From NCBI GenBank assembly GCA_035279405.1, contig DATEHU010000033.1, positions 140,231 through 204,230 on the forward strand: a stretch of 64,000 bases of DNA. Direction: 5' to 3'. Numbering within the stretch: position 1 is the first letter of the stretch; each line of letters begins with the position of its first letter. Position numbers and translations under genes: made by a program. Shown one piece after another: positions 47,442-56,175 of the stretch. A model generated the notes under the pieces. The model had not been told where the DNA came from. It ran no database searches and was given only the letters and a program-made list of their open reading frames with translations. Source of the stretch: Gammaproteobacteria bacterium (lineage in GTDB: Bacteria; Pseudomonadota; Gammaproteobacteria; Natronospirales; REEB76).

Positions 47442-48509
47442 TCAAACAGGATACGGCCCTGCGAAATATAGGCCCGCTGGTTCATCATCGTCAAATATCA
47501 GATTCATATTCTGAATCGCCTGCCCGGCCATGCCTTTGACCAGATTATCCAGCGCCGCCATGATCACCACGTTGCCGTTCTTTTCATGCACTGCAATATC
47601 GCAGAAGTTGCTGCCGACCACAGAGGCGACGCGCGGCGTGTCCTCCACCAGCCGCACGAATGGCGCGTCACGATAAAATTTCTCGTAACGATCGCTAAGT
47701 GATTTCGCGTTCAGCCCGAGCGTAGCAGGCGGACGCAGTTGCACGCTGGCGAAGATGCCGCGCACTAGTGGCGCGGAATGCGGCACAAAGGCCAGGCTGT
47801 AGCCGGTTGAGCCTTCGGCATCCAGCAGGCGCGTGATCTCCGCTTCGTGCTGGTGATTCAGCACCTTGTAGGCGCGGAAATCATTGGCGCGCGTGGGGTG
47901 GTGGGTGGTTTCACCGGGCGTAGCGCCAAATCCGGAAGAACCGGTCATCGCACTCACCGCGATAAAGCCCAGGTTTTTCAGTCCAGCCAGTGGCAGCAGC
48001 GCCAGTTGAATCGTGGTGGCAAAACAGCCGGGACTGGCGATACGTTTGGCGCCCTTGATCTTTTCTTTCTGCCACTCCGGCAGGCCGTACACGAAAGTTC
48101 CCAACGCTTGCGGACAAGGATGCGGCTTGCCGTAGGCGCGCTCGAAAGCCGCCGCGTTGTCGAGCCGGAAATCGCCGGAAAGATCAATGAGCGTCAAGCG
48201 GTCGGCGAGGCCATGCTTTGACCATGCCTTCTCCAGCGCCGGCAATTGCTGCGCCAGCTCGAAATGCGGCATGGCGGAAAACACCACCGGCGATTCTGCT
48301 TTTGCGAACGCCGCCCAATCCGGTTCAGCCTCGAACGTGCCGTCCACTACGCGGTAAAGATTCGGGTGCGTTTTCCAGAACGGTTCGCCCGCGTGCCTGC
48401 GCGAAACGGCATGGATGCTTTGCACGTGTGGGTGCTGCGACAGCAGGCGCAGTAATTCGCCACCGCCGTAGCCGGAACCGCCGAGAATATAGACGCTGAT
48501 TTTCCCCAT
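47442..48509 (-). CDS. argC: N-acyl-gamma-glutamyl-phosphate reductase
   Basis: 355 residues. It reduces the acylglutamyl phosphate to the semialdehyde with NADPH. ILGGSGYGGGELLRLL is the dinucleotide loop, the catalytic cysteine is C162 in ASPGCFATTIQLALLPL, and GSSGFGATPGETTHHPTRAN follows. It is the last gene of the arginine cluster; a 209 bp repeat-filled gap separates it from the P-loop gene. If the transcarbamylase in this cluster is succinyl-specific, the substrate here would be the N-succinyl form. The sequence of ArgC alone does not decide this. Confidence 0.94.
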   Translation of the reverse strand: MGKISVYILGGSGYGGGELLRLLSQHPHVQSIHAVSRRHAGEPFWKTHPNLYRVVDGTFEAEPDWAAFAKAESPVVFSAMPHFELAQQLPALEKAWSKHGLADRLTLIDLSGDFRLDNAAAFERAYGKPHPCPQALGTFVYGLPEWQKEKIKGAKRIASPGCFATTIQLALLPLAGLKNLGFIAVSAMTGSSGFGATPGETTHHPTRANDFRAYKVLNHQHEAEITRLLDAEGSTGYSLAFVPHSAPLVRGIFASVQLRPPATLGLNAKSLSDRYEKFYRDAPFVRLVEDTPRVASVVGSNFCDIAVHEKNGNVVIMAALDNLVKGMAGQAIQNMNLIFDDDEPAGLYFAGPYPV

Positions 48510-48718
48510 TGCGACTATTGAAAAGTCCAGCGCTTGATTTCCATCGTACCCTCATCCCCTCCCCTTCTCCCGGGGGGAGAAGGGCTTAGGGCACCTAACA
48601 AAATGACAATTCCTGACAAATCCCCCCGCGCGCAAAGCGCGCCCCCTTTGCAAAGGGGGGATAAGGGGGGATTTAACCTGTGCCTGGTGATGACCACCGT
48701 ACATTTTGTTAGACGCTC
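48510..48718. repeat. 209 bp of hairpin repeats between argC and P-loop gene
   Basis: Contains a CCCTTCTCCCGGGGGGAGAAGG hairpin (split at CCCGGG, about 48560-48583) and a CGCGCGCAAAGCGCGC / CCCCCTTTGCAAAGGGGGG region (about 48625-48662). A CACCTAACAAAATG...CATTTTGTTAGACG outer pair (48592 and 48702) encloses the second block like a larger inverted repeat. No gene. Confidence 0.7.
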
Positions 48719-49864
48719 TTAGTACCTTTCGGATTGGATTGCGACATTACCGTAACTCCCCTCTCCCACCGGGAGAGGGGACAGGGGTGAGGGCTGACTT
48801 GCCGTAAACGCGGGATTTCCGACGCCGCGCTGCGCCAACACTTTCAGCACATGATCGCCCAATGCCTTGGCATGCGTGCGCGCGTTGATGGCAGGCCGGC
48901 CGGTAGCGCGCTCCACGAAGCGCACGCCCACGTTGTTGTCGGTGCAGGGCCCGGTAACCACGTCCACGCCGATGCCGTAATCGATCTGCAGATAATCCAC
49001 GCCGCCGGCAACGCCTACCGGATCGTTGGCGCAGAACACGAAGGCCGCGCCAAGTGCGCGCAGATCGGCGTCGTCGAGGATCGCCTGCACGCCGTAATCG
49101 CCCATCACGCCGTCGCCGGTTTCCGCCACGATGACATCGAAGCGTTGCGCGGAGAGTTCCGCGAAAATGGTCTTCGCCACCTGCGCCGCAGTGTCGGGGC
49201 CGGTACACACGATGCCTGCATCGGTGAAATCCAGCGTCACTTCCGCGCCGTAGTCACGCATGCTCAAGGTGTCGCGCATGAGCGCGACGCCGGTGAGCTT
49301 GGCGCCGCCCACGCGATAGCCCGCCTGCACCAGCCGCCGCACGATGGCACAGGCCGCCGCCGTCTTGCCGGCGTTCATGCAGGTGCCGGCCACGTACACC
49401 ACCTTGCAATCCGGTGGTACGCCATTCGGCTGGATCGCGCCCAGACGAATGTTGGCGGGCCGGCCCGCGCGCGACTGGAATTCCGGATACACCAACACCT
49501 GGCCCAATACCTCGAACTGAAACGGCGGTCCCACTTCCGGGTTGTGCGACACGCATTCGCCGATCACGCCGCCGAGATTGAGCACGTGCAGCACTTGCCC
49601 GGCTTCCACTTTTTTCGGCAGCACGCCCTCATAGCCGTGCAGCGCGTTGCGGTGGCCGAGCGCGCCCACGATGAGGTCGTCGCTGTGCACCACCGTCATG
49701 CGGCCGTGCACATCTTCAAGCGTGTTGTACGCGGATTTGTCGTTGACGATGCGCCCGGCCACCACCGCGCCGTGCTCCGCGCGCACTTCCGGCGTCAGCG
49801 TGAGCGTACGGTCCAGTTTCAGATTGCGGGTGACTGAAGCAATCTTGTCGGCGTTGATTCTCAT
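48719..49864 (-). CDS. unassigned P-loop protein inside the arginine cluster
   Basis: 381 residues. A nucleotide-binding loop GTCMNAGKT is at 160-168, preceded by VVYVAG and followed by RLVQAGYRVGGAKLTG and DFTDAGIVCTGPDT. VIVAETGDGVMGDYGVQAIL may be Walker B-like. The fold resembles BioD/MobB/DUF1611-type P-loop enzymes, but I cannot assign it. The first 150 residues form a separate domain (AGRIVNDKSAYNTLEDVHGR). ATG 49864 follows GGAGG. The last 25 residues are encoded by a CTCTCCC-type repeat. Its place between argC and argG suggests an arginine-related role. Confidence 0.7.
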   Translation of the reverse strand: MRINADKIASVTRNLKLDRTLTLTPEVRAEHGAVVAGRIVNDKSAYNTLEDVHGRMTVVHSDDLIVGALGHRNALHGYEGVLPKKVEAGQVLHVLNLGGVIGECVSHNPEVGPPFQFEVLGQVLVYPEFQSRAGRPANIRLGAIQPNGVPPDCKVVYVAGTCMNAGKTAAACAIVRRLVQAGYRVGGAKLTGVALMRDTLSMRDYGAEVTLDFTDAGIVCTGPDTAAQVAKTIFAELSAQRFDVIVAETGDGVMGDYGVQAILDDADLRALGAAFVFCANDPVGVAGGVDYLQIDYGIGVDVVTGPCTDNNVGVRFVERATGRPAINARTHAKALGDHVLKVLAQRGVGNPAFTASQPSPLSPLPVGEGSYGNVAIQSERY

Positions 49865-49899
49865 GGGCGCCTCCAAAAATCGTTCTTATGCCCTCTGGC

Positions 49900-49990
49900 G
49901 TTGTTAAAAATCGGCTCGGCATCCTCATGTACTGACGTGTACACTCCGGTGCCTCGCCGATTTTTGCCTAGCCATAGGCCAAAATCCCTG
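49900..49990. repeat. large imperfect inverted repeat between argG and P-loop gene
   Basis: AAAAATCGGCTCGGCATCCT and CTCGCCGATTTTT are arms around CATGTACTGACGTGTACAC. The 147 bp between the genes hold this and no ORF of interest. Confidence 0.65.
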
Positions 49991-50011
49991 ATTTTTTGAG
50001 GCACCCACTTC

Positions 50012-51211
50012 TTACTCATGTGCTGTACCCGCATGTAAGGCCAAGATTTGCTGCACGCCGTAAAGTTTGGCGAAGCCGGCGGCTTCGGCGCCGCTCCACA
50101 GCTTGTTGGCCTCGCCGTAGCTCGCAACCTTCGCGTCCATGAGCGAGTGCGGCGAGCGCACGCCTTCCACCGACCAGGTGCGCGGGTACAGCGTAAGCTT
50201 CACCTCACCGCTGACGCGCTGCTGGCTGGACTCCAGAAATGCTTCAAGATTGCGCGCCAGCGGATCAAAAAAATTCCCCTCGTGCAGCAACTGGCCATAC
50301 AGGTTGCCGAGCGTGTCTTTCCAGAACTGCTGCTTGCTGCTGAGCACCAGTTTTTCCAGCTCGCGGTGCGCGCCGATCAACAGATGCGCCGCCGGCGCCT
50401 CAAAGCCCACGCGGCCCTTGATGCCGAGAATGGTGTCACCCAGATGCACGCCACGCCCGATGCCGTACTCGCGTCCGGCGGCGTTCAGTTCGGCGATCAG
50501 CGCCACCGGGTCCAGGGAGTTGCCGTCAACGCTGTCCGGCACGCCCTGTCTGAAACTCAGTGTCAGCGACTTCGGCGCCAGCTTGGCCGCGTCAATTTCG
50601 CCGCCGGGAAACGCGCTTTGTGGCAGCGCGCTCCAGGAATTCAGCGTCTCGCGACCGCCCACGGACGTGCCCCACATGCCCTCGTTCACCGAATAGTGCT
50701 CGGTCTTTTCCGGAAACTCGAGGCCATGCTGGCTGAGAAACGCACGTTCCTCGGCGCGGCTCAGCCCCAGCGTGCGAATGGGCGTCAGCAACTCGAGCTC
50801 GGGCGCCAAGGCGCGGAAGGCCACGTCGAAACGCACTTGGTCGTTGCCCGCACCGGTGGAACCGTGCGCGAGCGCCGTGGCGCCGATTCGCTTGGCGACC
50901 GCCACCGCCTTCGCGGCCTGGGCCACGCGCTCCGCCGACACGCTCAGGGGATAGAGATTCCCGCGCAACACGTTGCCGTAAATCAGATAGCGCAGATAGC
51001 GGTCGAAGAGCTCTGCACGCGCGTCCACCGTGTAGTGCCGCTGTGCGCCCAGTTTCGGCGACTGGCTTTCGATGCGCGCGAGCTCTTGTGCCCTGAAACC
51101 GCCGGTGTTCACCGTCACGGTGCTTACTTCGTAGCCCTGCTCGCGCAGGTGTACGACGCAGAACGAAGTGTCCAGCCCGCCGGAAAACGCCAGTGCCACG
51201 TGTTTTTTCAT
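50012..51211 (-). CDS. argG: argininosuccinate synthase
   Basis: 399 residues. It joins citrulline and aspartate with ATP. The N-terminal PP-loop AFSGGLDTSFCVVHLREQG, ALAHGSTGAGNDQVRFDVAF and TEHYSVNEGMWGTSVGGRET are the family blocks. The sequence differs from typical E. coli-like ArgG and looks like the version associated with Bacteroidetes-type clusters; this is a judgement from memory of the motifs. ATG 51211 overlaps the argH stop by 4 bp. An upstream in-frame ATG (51229) lies inside argH. Confidence 0.95.
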   Translation of the reverse strand: MKKHVALAFSGGLDTSFCVVHLREQGYEVSTVTVNTGGFRAQELARIESQSPKLGAQRHYTVDARAELFDRYLRYLIYGNVLRGNLYPLSVSAERVAQAAKAVAVAKRIGATALAHGSTGAGNDQVRFDVAFRALAPELELLTPIRTLGLSRAEERAFLSQHGLEFPEKTEHYSVNEGMWGTSVGGRETLNSWSALPQSAFPGGEIDAAKLAPKSLTLSFRQGVPDSVDGNSLDPVALIAELNAAGREYGIGRGVHLGDTILGIKGRVGFEAPAAHLLIGAHRELEKLVLSSKQQFWKDTLGNLYGQLLHEGNFFDPLARNLEAFLESSQQRVSGEVKLTLYPRTWSVEGVRSPHSLMDAKVASYGEANKLWSGAEAAGFAKLYGVQQILALHAGTAHE

Positions 51212-52575
51212 GCTTGCCCCTTTGACCATATGGCTTCTTCACATTGTCCAAGGTGCTTGCGCGTGCGCTCAATCCACTGTTGCGCGTCCTGCACCTGCAC
51301 TTCGATCATCTTCAACCCGGGATTGCCGGCACCGCCCAGGTGTGTGGCCGTGAGCGCAGCGCGATCCGGATCGAAACTGCCGTCCGCCAGTTGCCGCGCA
51401 ACCCGCTGGTAAGCATCGCGGAAGGGAACGCCGTGCTGCACGTGCTGATAGGCCGCGTGCGTGGCATACAACTCATCGCCGCATGCGGCGGCCGCACGCT
51501 CCGCATTAACCTGCAAGGCGGGCACCAGACGAATCAGCACATCAAGCCAGTCACGCGCGATGTCGAGCGCCGCAAACAGCGGCTTTTTCAGCAACTGCAC
51601 GTCACGGTGATAGTTGGAGGGCAGCCCCGTCGCCAATTCCTGAATCATGGCCGCGTGGCCGCGCAGCTCGCGACAGCGTGCGCGCGCAAGTTCCACCACG
51701 TCCGGATTGCGCTTCTGCGGCATGATGGACGAGCCGGTGGTGAAAGCGTCCGGCAAATCCACAAAGCCGAATTCCGGCATGGAATACAGCACCACATCCC
51801 ACAGGAATTTTTCCATCACCAGCCCGACGGAGGCCAGCTCGTTTACCAGTGCCAGTTCGTGGCGGCCGCGGGAATTCATCACATCCACGGGACTGACCTG
51901 CACGCTGGAAAATCCCAGCAGCTTTGCGGTGTATTCGCGATCGAGCGGCAAGGGCACGCCGAATCCGGCGGCTGCACCCAATGGACACCGGTCCAGCCGC
52001 ACGTACACGGCCTGCATGGCCTGCAGCTCCTCAGCCAGACCCGCCGCGAACGCCGCCGCCCACAGACCAAACGTGGACGGCATGGCGCGGCGCAGATGCG
52101 TATATCCCGGCATGACCTCGCCGGCATGCGTACGCGCGAAATTCACGAACGCGGTTGCCAGCTCGATCACCTGCGCCGCGATATTCACCAGGGCATCACG
52201 CATGTACAGGCGCAGCGCCAACGCCACCTGATCGTTGCGCGACCGGCCCAGATGCAGTCGCTTGCCGGCATCGCCCAGCGCCTGCGTGAGCAGCGTCTCG
52301 ATGGCCGTGTGGCAATCCTCCTGTTCCGGCCGGATGCGAACTTCCCCGCGGCGCGCCTGCGCGGCAATCGCGGCGAGCTGCGTTACCAGGGCCGCGGCAT
52401 CGTCCTGCATCAGCAGTGCGGTGTGGGCCAGCATGCGTGCATGCGCGGCGCTGCCGAGCGCATCGAAAGGCAGGAGCCGCTGATCCAGTGTCGGATCGTC
52501 GCCCACGGTGAAGCGATGAACCGTCTCGTCGAGCGGCAGCCCCTTGGCCCAGAGTTGCGACGCGCCGTGGTTCAC
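51208..52575 (-). CDS. argH: argininosuccinate lyase
   Basis: 455 residues of the fumarase/aspartase superfamily. It splits argininosuccinate to arginine and fumarate. The signature is GSSIMPQKRNPD near residue 285, with LHLGRSRNDQVALALRLYMR and MPGYTHLRRAMPSTFGLW earlier. Four-base ATGA overlaps with argB upstream and argG downstream show tight coupling in a single transcript. The catalytic loop and length are normal. Confidence 0.95.
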   Translation of the reverse strand: MNHGASQLWAKGLPLDETVHRFTVGDDPTLDQRLLPFDALGSAAHARMLAHTALLMQDDAAALVTQLAAIAAQARRGEVRIRPEQEDCHTAIETLLTQALGDAGKRLHLGRSRNDQVALALRLYMRDALVNIAAQVIELATAFVNFARTHAGEVMPGYTHLRRAMPSTFGLWAAAFAAGLAEELQAMQAVYVRLDRCPLGAAAGFGVPLPLDREYTAKLLGFSSVQVSPVDVMNSRGRHELALVNELASVGLVMEKFLWDVVLYSMPEFGFVDLPDAFTTGSSIMPQKRNPDVVELARARCRELRGHAAMIQELATGLPSNYHRDVQLLKKPLFAALDIARDWLDVLIRLVPALQVNAERAAAACGDELYATHAAYQHVQHGVPFRDAYQRVARQLADGSFDPDRAALTATHLGGAGNPGLKMIEVQVQDAQQWIERTRKHLGQCEEAIWSKGQA

Positions 52576-53492
52576 GCCGCCTGCACTTTCGCGGCCGTAT
52601 CCTGGGCCACGATCATGGTGCCACTGCCCTGGTTGGTGAACACCTCGGTGAGCACCGCGTCCGCCACGACACCGCTGACCAGATGCGCACTGGTGACCCC
52701 GCCGGTAAGCGCGCGCCGCACCGCCGCGAGCTTCGGCCGCATGCCGCCGGAGATCTTGCCGTTCTTTTCCAGCAGCTCCGCACCCGCGAGCGTGGTGTAG
52801 GGAACCAGACTCGACGGTCGCGCCAGATCCTCCAGCAGGCCCGGAACCTTGAGCAGGAAAAACAGCTTCTCGGCTCTGAGCGCGAGCGCGATTTCCGCGG
52901 CCACGGTGTCGGCATTGGTGTTGAACACTTCGCCCTTGTCGTTCGCGGAAAGCGGCGTCACCACCGGTACATAGCCACCGTCCAGCAAATGCGTGAGCAG
53001 CGCCGGATTCACCTGCTCGATGTCGCCCACCAGACCGAAGTCCACGAACTCGGCCTGTCCGGCATCGTTCTTGATCTGCATGGGTGCGCGTTTGCGGGCC
53101 TTGAGCAGGCCGCCGTCCACACCGCTCACTCCGGTGACCGGCAGTCCCGCGGCGCGCAGGTCCGCCAGCAAATCAGTGTGCACCGATCCCGCGAGCACCA
53201 TCTTGGCCGCGTCCAGCACCTGGCGCGTGGTCACGCGCCGGCCGGCCACCTTCTCCACCGGCAGCGCCAGCGCCTCGCACAGCGCATCGAGGCTGGCACC
53301 GCCGCCGTGCACAATCACCAGTTTGATGGAAAAGCTCCACAGTACATTCAACTGCTCGCACACCGCGCGGCGCACAGCGGCATCTTCCAGCACCTCGCCG
53401 CCGAGCTTGAACACAAAAGTCTTGCCGCGGAACGCGCGCACGTATTGCGCGGCCGAGCGCAGCGACGCGTAACTGTCAGGCGACATGGACAT
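52572..53492 (-). CDS. argB: N-acylglutamate kinase (ArgB)
   Basis: 306 residues of the amino acid kinase family. KTFVFKLGGEVLEDAA opens the fold, IVHGGGASLDALCEALAL is the substrate glycine loop, and NTNADTVAAEIALALRAEKL and KISGGMRPKLAAVRRALTGG follow. The usual substrate is N-acetylglutamate; N-succinylglutamate is possible if the pathway uses succinyl intermediates. ATG 53492 has AGGAGG 6 bp upstream inside the 3' end of argF', giving a 17 bp overlap; ATG 53486 is an alternative. Confidence 0.93.
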   Translation of the reverse strand: MSMSPDSYASLRSAAQYVRAFRGKTFVFKLGGEVLEDAAVRRAVCEQLNVLWSFSIKLVIVHGGGASLDALCEALALPVEKVAGRRVTTRQVLDAAKMVLAGSVHTDLLADLRAAGLPVTGVSGVDGGLLKARKRAPMQIKNDAGQAEFVDFGLVGDIEQVNPALLTHLLDGGYVPVVTPLSANDKGEVFNTNADTVAAEIALALRAEKLFFLLKVPGLLEDLARPSSLVPYTTLAGAELLEKNGKISGGMRPKLAAVRRALTGGVTSAHLVSGVVADAVLTEVFTNQGSGTMIVAQDTAAKVQAA

Positions 53493-54507
53493 GGCGGGCC
53501 TCCTTCTTCTGGTTGAGCAGCTCATGCAGCAACACGCGCTGCACGTGAAAACGGTTTTCGGCCTGGTCCAGGACGCGGCTGTGCGCACCATCCAGCACTG
53601 CGTCGGCGACTTCGACATTGCGGCGCACCGGCAGACAGTGCAGAAAAATTGCATCCTGCGCGGCCGCGGCCAGTGTCTTGTCCGTCACCAGCCAATCCTT
53701 GTGGGCCGCGACGCGTGCCACCGCCGCGTTCGCCGGCACCTCACGCGTGGCCGGCCCCCAGCTTTTCGCATAGACCACGCGGCTGCCCGCAAGCGCAGTG
53801 TTCCGATCGTGTGTCACCGTCACCGCACCGCCGCTCGCGGCTGCATGCCGGCCCGCCTCCGCCAGTACCGCGGGATGCAGATCGAATCCGGGCGGATGTG
53901 CAACGCGTACCTCGCAGCCCACGGCCGCGGCGGTGAGCAAGAACGAATGCGGTACGGCCTTGGGCAGCGGCTTGATATGCGGCGCCCAAGTGAGCGTTAC
54001 CGGCAATCCACGCGTGTTGCCAAATTGTTCGCGTATCGTCAGCAGGTCCGCCAAACCCTGGCAGGGATGCTCGCGCGCGGATTCCATACTCACCACCGGT
54101 ACGCCCGCGAGTTCGCGGAAGGCGTTGATCACCGGGTCGGCGGCGTCGGCGTCATCGTCTGCGAGTGCAGCGAAGGTGCGCACCGCCAGCGCGTCTACGT
54201 AGCGGCCGAGCACGGGAATCGCTTCGCGGATGTGTTCGGGCTTGTCACTGTCCATGATTGCGCCCGCGCGATCCTCCAACTTCCACACGCCGCTGCCCAC
54301 TTCCAGCACGATCGAGTGACCGCCGCCGCGCAGCATGGCGGCTTCGAACGAGGCGCGCGTGCGCAGCGAGGGATTGAAAAACACCATGCCGAGCAGCTTG
54401 TCGCGTAGGTGAAGGCCCGGCGGCTGTTTCTTCCAGGCGAGCGCTGCGCCGAGCACTGCGTCCACGCCGCTCACGCCGAGATCCGAGAGCCGGGTGAAAT
54501 GCCGCAT
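53476..54507 (-). CDS. argF': N-acylornithine transcarbamylase, probably succinylornithine-specific
   Basis: 343 residues. The carbamoyl-phosphate loop is NPSLRTRASFE, with HPCQGLADLLT and HCLPVRRN downstream. WAPHIKPLPKAVPHS and VVYAKSWG mark the acylornithine subfamily and not OTC. At residue 90 it has proline (MDSDKPEHIREAIPVLGRY), as in the Bacteroides succinylornithine enzyme, where Xanthomonas acetylornithine transcarbamylase has glutamate. The lysine carboxylated in the Xanthomonas enzyme (RRNVKATDAV) is glutamate here (RRNVEVADAV). The ATG shares one base with the argD stop. The substrate is inferred from these positions. Confidence 0.85.
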   Translation of the reverse strand: MRHFTRLSDLGVSGVDAVLGAALAWKKQPPGLHLRDKLLGMVFFNPSLRTRASFEAAMLRGGGHSIVLEVGSGVWKLEDRAGAIMDSDKPEHIREAIPVLGRYVDALAVRTFAALADDDADAADPVINAFRELAGVPVVSMESAREHPCQGLADLLTIREQFGNTRGLPVTLTWAPHIKPLPKAVPHSFLLTAAAVGCEVRVAHPPGFDLHPAVLAEAGRHAAASGGAVTVTHDRNTALAGSRVVYAKSWGPATREVPANAAVARVAAHKDWLVTDKTLAAAAQDAIFLHCLPVRRNVEVADAVLDGAHSRVLDQAENRFHVQRVLLHELLNQKKEARHVHVA

Positions 54508-55658
54508 CACGCCGCTTCCCGTGCGCCGAATTCGCCAACGACATCTAGCAACATTTTCACCGCGCGCGTGCTCACGTTGAACGGTGGCATGAGTCTCAGC
54601 ACCGCCGGATCGTCTGAGCCTCCTACCAAAATGCGCCTGTCGAAAAGGTGCGCCTTCAGGGCCTTGGCTTGAGCGCCGGCTTCGAGTCCCAGCAGCAGTC
54701 CTGCGCCACGCACTTCACGCACGACGCCGTGCATATTGGCGCGGATGTGCTGCGCCAGCGCACGCGCATGTGTCATGAGATTTTCTTCCCGGATTACTTT
54801 AAGCGTGGCAATCAGCGCCGCGCAGGCGAGCGGACCACCGCCGAACGTGCTCCCAAGGTCGCCGGGCCCGAGTGCCGCGGCGATGTTGGAGCGCATCAGC
54901 ACGCCGCCCATGGGTACACCCGAAGCCATGCCCTTGGCGCAAGTGATGATGTCGGGTTCAACGCCGTAAAGATTCGCGGCGAAGGGTGAGCCCAGCCGGC
55001 CGATGCCGGTCTGCACTTCATCGAGGATCAACAGCGCACCAGACTGCGTGCACTTGTCGCGCAGCGCGGCAAACCATGTGGCATCCGCGGTTTTCACCCC
55101 GGCCATGGACTGGATGGGCTCGACGATCACCGCGGCCTTGTCGGAAAAATCCGCGGTGGCAAGCGCCACGACATCGCCGAACGGCAGAAAGTCCACCGGC
55201 GCGAGCAACGATTCAAAATCCTTGCGCAACTTGGGTGCATCGGTAACCGACAGGGCGAGCAAAGAGCGGCCGTGGAAGGCGCCCTGAAATGCCGCAAATT
55301 TTTTGCGACCGGTAAGTTTGAGCGCAATCTTCAGCGCATTTTCGTTGGCTTCGGCACCGGAGTTGCAGAAGAACACCGAGGCCATGCCATTGCCGGCGAA
55401 TTCAATCAGCGCCGCCGCGGCCGCATCGCGCACCGGCAGGTGGGCCGCCGCGGAATAAAAAATCAGCTTGTGCGCTTGCTCAGCAATTGCAGCCGCCACC
55501 GCCGGATGGCAATGGCCGGTGCTGGCCACGCAGTGGCCGCCGTAGAAATCCAGCCAACGGTTGCCGGCCGCGTCCAGGATGTATTCGCCTTCTCCCCCCA
55601 CCACCGGAAAGGGATAAGGCGCATACGTCGGCAGCAGCGCAGATGAATATGCAGTCAT
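54507..55658 (-). CDS. argD: N-acylornithine aminotransferase
   Basis: 383 residues, fold-type I PLP enzyme. It converts the acylglutamate semialdehyde to acylornithine. LDFYGGHCVASTGHCHPAV, FCNSGAEANENALKIALK, LILDEVQTGIGRLGSPFAAN and the PLP-lysine region ITCAKGMASGVPMGGVLMRS are present. It is the first gene of the cluster, divergent from argR across an AT-rich 100 bp gap. It is one base overlapped with argF'. Confidence 0.95.
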   Translation of the reverse strand: MTAYSSALLPTYAPYPFPVVGGEGEYILDAAGNRWLDFYGGHCVASTGHCHPAVAAAIAEQAHKLIFYSAAAHLPVRDAAAAALIEFAGNGMASVFFCNSGAEANENALKIALKLTGRKKFAAFQGAFHGRSLLALSVTDAPKLRKDFESLLAPVDFLPFGDVVALATADFSDKAAVIVEPIQSMAGVKTADATWFAALRDKCTQSGALLILDEVQTGIGRLGSPFAANLYGVEPDIITCAKGMASGVPMGGVLMRSNIAAALGPGDLGSTFGGGPLACAALIATLKVIREENLMTHARALAQHIRANMHGVVREVRGAGLLLGLEAGAQAKALKAHLFDRRILVGGSDDPAVLRLMPPFNVSTRAVKMLLDVVGEFGAREAA

Positions 55659-55758
55659 CTATGAATAAACAAGAGTAAGATTGAATATAATGCGGATATA
55701 TACAAGTAAATGCCAATAAATGCAAGAGATATGCGAGAATTTTTGCCGTGAGGAATCC
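55659..55758. promoter_or_regulatory. argD-argR divergent promoter with candidate ARG boxes
   Basis: Strongly AT-rich. CTATGAATAAACAAGAG and GCCAATAAATGCAAGAG each resemble ARG boxes (ATGAATAAAAATTCA-like), and TTGAATATAATGCGGAT is a third candidate with a TATAAT-like core. ArgR probably represses both directions here. Confidence 0.5.
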
Positions 55759-56175
55759 ATGACGCTCGACGAAGCCATTCTGAAATTGACCAATGAACGG
55801 CAAATCACCGATCAGTCGGACTTGCTCGCGTTACTCGGTCAGGCCGGCCACGAGGTGACACAGCCGACGCTGTCGCGGCATCTGCGCAAACTCAGCATCC
55901 AGAAACTGGCCGGTCGTTATCAGCGTGTGGAGCGGCCGGCAGCGGAAATGCCGGTCTTCGAAATGAAGCTGGTTCCTCCAAACATGCTGGTGATCCGCAC
56001 GCGCCCGGGCTTTGCCCAGCCGCTGGCTGTCAAGCTGGATCAGCGGCGGATTGAAGGCGTAGCCGGGACCTTGGCGGGCGACGACACGGTATTCATCGCC
56101 GTGGCTTCCTCGACAGCCCTCAAAAATGTGTCCGCCGCAGTGGAACAACTGCTCGCCGGTGGTAATAGCGAATAG
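55759..56175 (+). CDS. argR: arginine repressor
   Basis: 138 residues. The N-terminal winged helix reads TDQSDLLALLGQAGHEVTQP and TLSRHLRKLSIQKL. The C-terminal oligomerisation and arginine-binding domain has VIRTRPGFAQPLAVKLDQRR, then GVAGTLAGDDTVFIAVAS with the GDDT arginine-contact motif. ATG 55759 follows GAGGA; the frame opens further upstream without a start signal. Its divergent position to argD makes it the obvious regulator of the cluster. Confidence 0.93.
   Translation: MTLDEAILKLTNERQITDQSDLLALLGQAGHEVTQPTLSRHLRKLSIQKLAGRYQRVERPAAEMPVFEMKLVPPNMLVIRTRPGFAQPLAVKLDQRRIEGVAGTLAGDDTVFIAVASSTALKNVSAAVEQLLAGGNSE

Follow-up and report, generated by a model that had tools for sequence, protein, structure and literature searches.

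The arginine cluster and its P-loop gene

We have found that the window analysed here, a stretch of 64,000 nucleotides from a gammaproteobacterium of the Natronospirales, carries a set of arginine biosynthesis genes in which a gene for a P-loop protein lies between argC and argG (Table 1). A preliminary description of this DNA had placed a 381-residue protein with the motif GTCMNAGKT (residues 160-168) between these two genes, and this is borne out, with the addition of the strand, minus, which had gone unstated. The plus-strand reading of 48719-49864 is interrupted by stops, and on the minus strand the frame starts at an ATG at 49864 with a GGAGG ribosome-binding site upstream. Judged by its conservation the frame is a real gene and not a chance ORF, because 99 relatives, with identities down to about 33%, share 46 invariant residues. 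Most relatives stop near residue 350, and the tail of the window's protein overlaps a GC-rich palindrome at 48757-48781. We note that GC-rich palindromes separate argC from the P-loop gene (48562-48781), and that the ORF takes in the one at 48757-48781 at its 3' end, which makes the protein longer.

Table 1. Features of the arginine locus in the window and the evidence for each
Feature	Position	Strand	Evidence
argC, N-acyl-gamma-glutamyl-phosphate reductase	47442..48509	minus	TIGR01850 333.8 bits, cut-off 233.6
Candidate N-acyl-(succinyl-)L-glutamate synthase gene	48719..49864	minus	381 aa, two domains; ORF, relatives, conservation in arginine clusters
C-terminal tail without conservation, residues 356-381 and stop codon	48719..48799	minus	pLDDT < 50; missing in most relatives; overlap with inverted repeat
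C-terminal P-loop domain, residues 150-345	48830..49417	minus	DUF1611/BioD/CTP-synthase-like fold
P-loop GTCMNAGKT, residues 160-168	49361..49387	minus	No change at G160, M163, G166, K167 or T168 among the 99 relatives
N-terminal all-beta domain, residues 1-149	49418..49864	minus	AlphaFold2 pLDDT 92
argG, argininosuccinate synthase	50012..51229	minus	TIGR00032 310 bits, cut-off 268.2
argH, argininosuccinate lyase	51208..52575	minus	TIGR00838 318.6 bits, cut-off 279.5
argB, N-acylglutamate kinase	52572..53546	minus	TIGR00761 206 bits, cut-off 151.3; 324 aa as scanned, start codon uncertain
argF', knotted-type carbamoyltransferase	53476..54510	minus	NF003384 over cut-off; succinyl-type signature P91/P183/E300
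argD, N-acylornithine aminotransferase	54507..55658	minus	Acetylornithine transaminase models best but below cut-offs; Pfam Aminotran_3
argR, arginine repressor, divergent	55720..56175	plus	Pfam PF02863 and PF01316 over cut-off

The window's argB encodes a kinase domain only, with no fused GNAT or other acetyltransferase domain, and no gene for an M20 deacylase separates argB from argH in this cluster. The P-loop protein is 62-67% identical to proteins from Holophagaceae, and the window copy groups with those of other Gammaproteobacteria, nested in a mainly Holophagaceae clade. Because of this nesting, and because the pairwise distances of the P-loop protein track those of argF', argB and argC (r 0.89-0.93), sequence comparison suggests that the whole arginine cluster (47442-55658) moved as a unit between Acidobacteriota and these Gammaproteobacteria.

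Distribution of the family and the first step of the pathway

When 84,980 species genomes were scanned, 80 relatives of the P-loop protein came out, distributed over Pseudomonadota (Natronospirales-type Gammaproteobacteria), Acidobacteriota (mostly Holophagaceae), Myxococcota, Gemmatimonadota, Elusimicrobiota and Planctomycetota. All 80 genes, across the six phyla, are held by an arginine cluster, mostly directly between argG and argC. Among 55 seven-gene loci the order is argD-argF'-argB-argH-argG-X-argC (X being the P-loop gene) in 36 and argG-X-argC-argD-argF'-argB-argH in 19, with the reservation that loci from related genomes are not independent samples. The P-loop gene still adjoins argC in distant acidobacterial clusters, where argH, argG or argR stands on its other side; four such clusters have it between argH and argC. 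The arginine-linked role that the preliminary description considered likely is strongly supported by this conservation, and the co-occurrence with argF' that it put forward as a check is found wherever the contig is long enough, the contig end having come first in each locus without argF' in view. It had also named homologues lying mostly away from arginine genes as an argument against that role, and this does not apply to the present family; only a sister group at 26-30% identity is found elsewhere.

This sister group has the same motifs and is carried outside arginine clusters on alphaproteobacterial and Priestia plasmids, and because its members sit there the superfamily as a whole is functionally mixed. 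On the Priestia megaterium plasmid NZ_CP085446.1 (our locus L172, 2793-11481) a relative of 27% identity lies in an apparent phosphonate natural-product cluster, together with genes for PEP mutase-like and phosphonopyruvate/sulfopyruvate-decarboxylase-like proteins, two ATP-grasp ligases and an M20 amidohydrolase; the cluster also includes an extra ornithine carbamoyltransferase, which could be a resistant target. The alphaproteobacterial sister family (L085 1276-2388, L173, L174 and L176) is annotated as DUF1611 or 'dethiobiotin synthase', and on three Rhodobacterales plasmids its gene comes directly before an ABC transporter gene.

The only recurrent gap of more than 350 bp in the seven-gene loci lies between argB and argH (48/55 loci, median 1.1 kb), and the ORFs sampled from these gaps are M20 deacylases; in the 7 of 55 loci without the gap, the deacylase would have to lie elsewhere. 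Every gene of the 55 loci except the P-loop gene has a step in the pathway, and glutamate acylation has no other gene. Because all other cluster genes are assigned to steps and step 1 is otherwise left without a gene, the P-loop gene is the candidate for it. It would take up the one step left vacant in intact arginine clusters, the exceptions being two acidobacterial genomes, G386 and G377.

Two known enzymes of the first step, full-length ArgA (TIGR01890) and ArgJ, were sought with their own models in 49 carrier genomes besides the window's own, some of them drafts. ArgJ is absent from all 49, which span the six phyla, and no ArgA exceeds the TIGR01890 cut-off in any of them, the strong matches being to the ArgB kinase half only; both models score over cut-off in control genomes. 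ArgJ is likewise absent from the genome to which the window belongs, which is 97.6% complete and whose strong ArgA-model match is ArgB; the weak ArgA-model matches are one RimI (over cut-off) and one unassigned GNAT (L082) that is below all NCBIfam cut-offs.

Within Holophagaceae the P-loop gene is present in 65 of 77 genomes, three of which, only 0.9-1.2 Mb in size, keep it inside the cluster. We rejected the reading of the other 12 as true losses: eight have no ArgB kinase match, and in four the contigs end before the expected site. Most Holophagaceae have been reported to be without N-acetylglutamate synthase (PMC11561045), so the gap in this family is documented independently. As for G386 and G377, which have a succinyl-type argF' and an argR adjoining argC, another step-1 enzyme must exist in both, because their clusters are of the succinyl type and they have neither the P-loop gene nor ArgA. 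A GNAT-type ArgA was considered as the explanation and set aside, with weak GNAT matches in G386 and none in G377.

Fold, sequence family and acyl group

An AlphaFold2 model of the P-loop protein (pLDDT 90) has two domains. The fold of the N-terminal domain has no confident match (Foldseek best E 0.65; VIA best Z 3.1, to the LexA C-domain). For the P-loop domain, VIA gives Z 17.0 with the DUF1611 protein 2g0t (rmsd 3.1, 180 residues aligned), 16.8 with CTP synthase, which is tied with 2g0t, 16.0 with 2obn, 15-16 with dethiobiotin synthetases (BioD) and 15.2 with DgcN (7xrj), and the fold also matches HypB, UreG and SRP GTPases. As modelled, the domain falls in the DUF1611 fold class, which does not amount to specific kinship, because the Z scores for DUF1611 are tied with those for CTP synthase and BioD. 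The 46 residues invariant in the 99 relatives include, besides those of the P-loop, K189, D198, E248 and D251, and Cys162 is near-invariant.

No Pfam or NCBIfam model scores over cut-off with the P-loop protein. The preliminary description had proposed a search with models including DUF1611 and BioD/MobB, from which DUF1611 does emerge as the closest, although none passes its cut-off. The DUF1611 P-loop model (PF07755) is the best Pfam match, scoring 15.8 bits where the cut-off is 25, and is weakly matched by 34 of 39 relatives (best E 2e-4), which makes DUF1611 the closest named family by sequence. The similarity is confined to the P-loop; an N-terminal DUF1611 model is not among the Pfam matches. 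NF041892 (DgcN) has no match in the protein, while true DgcN proteins score 514-571 bits. The protein and DgcN are distant homologues, and a profile-profile comparison of their families' alignments with hhalign falls short of significance (probability 0.9%, E 0.06). Assignment to DUF1611/DgcN was rejected on these scores and on the differing N-terminal domain and neighbourhood. The BioD model TIGR00347 scores 14.7 bits against a cut-off of 83.3, with dethiobiotin synthetases as weak sequence matches in the PDB, and MobB, BioD and CobQ were all rejected as below cut-off. Neither a GNAT domain or TIGR01890 nor PF01960 (ArgJ) has a match in the protein.

The N-acetyl-D-glutamate racemase DgcA is not found beside the P-loop gene, the arginine clusters having no room for it; one of the DgcN loci used for comparison has DgcA over cut-off, and the others have a similar ORF. 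We note that at two loci with DUF1611 genes (L103 910-3209 and L104 389-2286), the former encoding a DUF1611 protein below the DgcN cut-off, the next gene is not DgcA and encodes a protein starting with MTAPR(L/I)EFDL(N/H)KIHHNAR. This protein looks like a relative of alanine racemase and perhaps belongs to a second route of amino-acid racemisation.

The carbamoyltransferase bears on the identity of the acyl group. Residues 92/185/302 separate N-acetylornithine (E/N/K) from N-succinylornithine (A, S, P, V or Q / P / V, I or E) carbamoyltransferases (PMC4581275). Aligned to these positions of the Xanthomonas campestris enzyme, the window's argF' has P91/P183/E300, the N-succinylornithine signature; among PDB entries it matches best a variant of the X. 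campestris enzyme in which residue 92 is P. Of the 67 argF' tested in these loci, all carry P at 185 and none has E at 92, N at 185 or K at 302; one has T at position 92. Because of this signature, the database name 'N-acetylornithine carbamoyltransferase' is probably wrong for the window's argF', and the acyl group of the pathway is more likely succinyl than acetyl. The NCBIfam equivalog NF003384 seems to mix acetyl- and succinyl-ornithine specificities. Among 149 Acidobacteriota genomes, outside Holophagaceae, the P-loop gene is present in 18 of the 20 succinyl-type clusters in which its site is assembled. The sole E/N/K (acetyl-type) cluster, a single and thus thin contrast, has no P-loop gene anywhere in its genome; its kinase, of 438 aa with an acetyltransferase-like extension, matches the PRK04531 family end to end and is a fused ArgB-acetyltransferase, in agreement with the fused NAGS-kinase known from Xanthomonas (PMC1865377).

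Proposed function and comparison with known systems

We propose that the P-loop protein catalyses the first committed step, N-acylating L-glutamate whatever the donor, and we put the probability of this at roughly 0.6. What suggests such a reaction is the combination of a fold class and motif series like those of DgcN with a site at which acylation is missing. DgcN is the DUF1611 protein named N-acetyltransferase in NF041892; according to work from 2023 it reportedly N-acetylates D-glutamate from acetyl-CoA. The P-loop protein would produce the substrate of ArgB, most likely from succinyl-CoA. The P-loop, by analogy with DgcN, would hold the phosphate groups of succinyl-CoA or acetyl-CoA as the acyl donor; the N-terminal beta domain may help to bind glutamate or the acyl group, and the glutamate amine would attack the activated acyl carbonyl. 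The chemistry may nevertheless differ from that of DgcN, because the P-loop protein keeps the threonine of GKT, absent in DgcN; given a step-1 role, a CoA thioester is favoured over an ATP-activated free acid by about 60:40. Of the roles suggested in the preliminary description, which did not name step 1 itself, an ATP-dependent step fits in being enzymatic and perhaps in depending on ATP. Ligand sensing finds no support, the cluster having its own ArgR, and neither does a racemase-type function, there being no racemase step in the pathway; no neighbouring gene supports either role.

A sub-case of the proposed function is that the same step is catalysed by an ATP-dependent N-succinyl-L-glutamate ligase, in which ATP would phosphorylate succinate and the glutamate amine would attack the acyl phosphate. 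Dethiobiotin synthetase, CTP synthase and formate-THF ligase phosphorylate their substrates with ATP. A complete ATPase-type signature (G160, G166, K167, T168, K189, D198, E248 and D251) is invariant in the 99 relatives and corresponds to the P-loop and the post-P-loop Lys and Glu of BioD, although this mapping is by motif and not from a ligand-bound model; the P-loop threonine, the weak PDB matches and the Z scores for CTP synthase and BioD point the same way. On the other hand, the characterised member of the closest named family, DgcN, is an acetyltransferase, and known acylglutamate synthases use acetyl-CoA or acetylornithine. We regard the ligase as possible but unlikely. A shade more doubtful is the fuller claim that such an ATP-dependent P-loop ligase, with a chemistry shared by no known acylglutamate synthase, starts a succinylated route to arginine that has gone unrecognised in at least six phyla.

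It is rather improbable that an unlinked GNAT, either a short NAGS or an ArgA2-like protein, performs step 1 while the P-loop protein performs an unrecognised extra reaction. Many carriers do have weak GNAT matches to the ArgA model, as the window's own genome does in L082, and G386 and G377 manage without the P-loop protein; but the matches are inconsistent among carriers, those of the window's genome are a RimI and a protein below every NCBIfam cut-off, and reports of ArgA2 are confined to Bacteroidetes and Caldithrix (PMC5317091, PMC9026213). More improbable still is an accessory role as a regulator or as an assembly or metal-insertion P-loop protein for an arginine enzyme. The fold matches to HypB, UreG and SRP GTPases would suit such a role, and Cys162 could bind metal, but step 1 would then be left without a recognised enzyme in 49 of 49 carriers, gammaproteobacterial clusters without the M20 metallo-enzyme still keep the P-loop gene, and so do the streamlined Holophagaceae genomes. 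Hardly any weight can be given to a deacylase (N-acylcitrulline or N-acylornithine hydrolase) standing in for ArgE. Such a role would suit the window's cluster, with no M20 gene between argB and argH. Against it stand the other carriers whose clusters encode an M20 deacylase as well as the P-loop protein, and the P-loop fold itself, which no known amide hydrolase of the pathway has.

We found no report, among CC-licensed papers, of a P-loop family as the enzyme of arginine step 1, by which glutamate is committed to the pathway. Should the assignment hold, the P-loop protein would be one more non-orthologous replacement and would bring a new fold to this step; the step-1 gap would be closed in Acidobacteriota, Gemmatimonadota, Elusimicrobiota, Myxococcota, some Planctomycetota and some Gammaproteobacteria. 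False predictions of auxotrophy would be put right, the succinyl pathway would reach beyond Bacteroidetes, and an unnamed branch near DUF1611 would gain a function.

Among known systems, DUF1611/DgcN (PF07755, NF041892; 7xrj, 2obn and 2g0t) resembles the P-loop protein in the C-terminal P-loop fold (VIA Z 15-17), in the motif series GTxxxxGK, TG, DF and E-x-G, and in glutamate N-acylation, as proposed here. It differs in its P-loop, GTDCSVGK(M/K) against GTCMNAGKT, and in its ties to the DgcA racemase rather than to arg genes, and the P-loop protein falls below all of its cut-offs and has an all-beta N-terminal domain. BioD and CTP synthase share the P-loop fold, a complete GxxxxGKT and the invariant post-P-loop Lys and Glu/Asp; the P-loop protein differs from them in its extra beta domain and arginine context and in scoring below the BioD cut-off. 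Veillonella and Dialister have been proposed to use ArgA3. Classical ArgA, the fused NAGS-kinase of Xanthomonas (PMC1865377) and ArgJ perform the step proposed for the P-loop protein but share no detectable sequence or domain with it. A parallel in proposed role is ArgA2/BT3761, a predicted N-succinylglutamate synthase that fills step 1 in Bacteroidetes (PMC7311316, PMC9026213) and, like the P-loop gene, co-occurs with a succinyl-type ArgF inside arg operons; ArgA2, however, is a GNAT protein, whereas the candidate described here is a P-loop protein.
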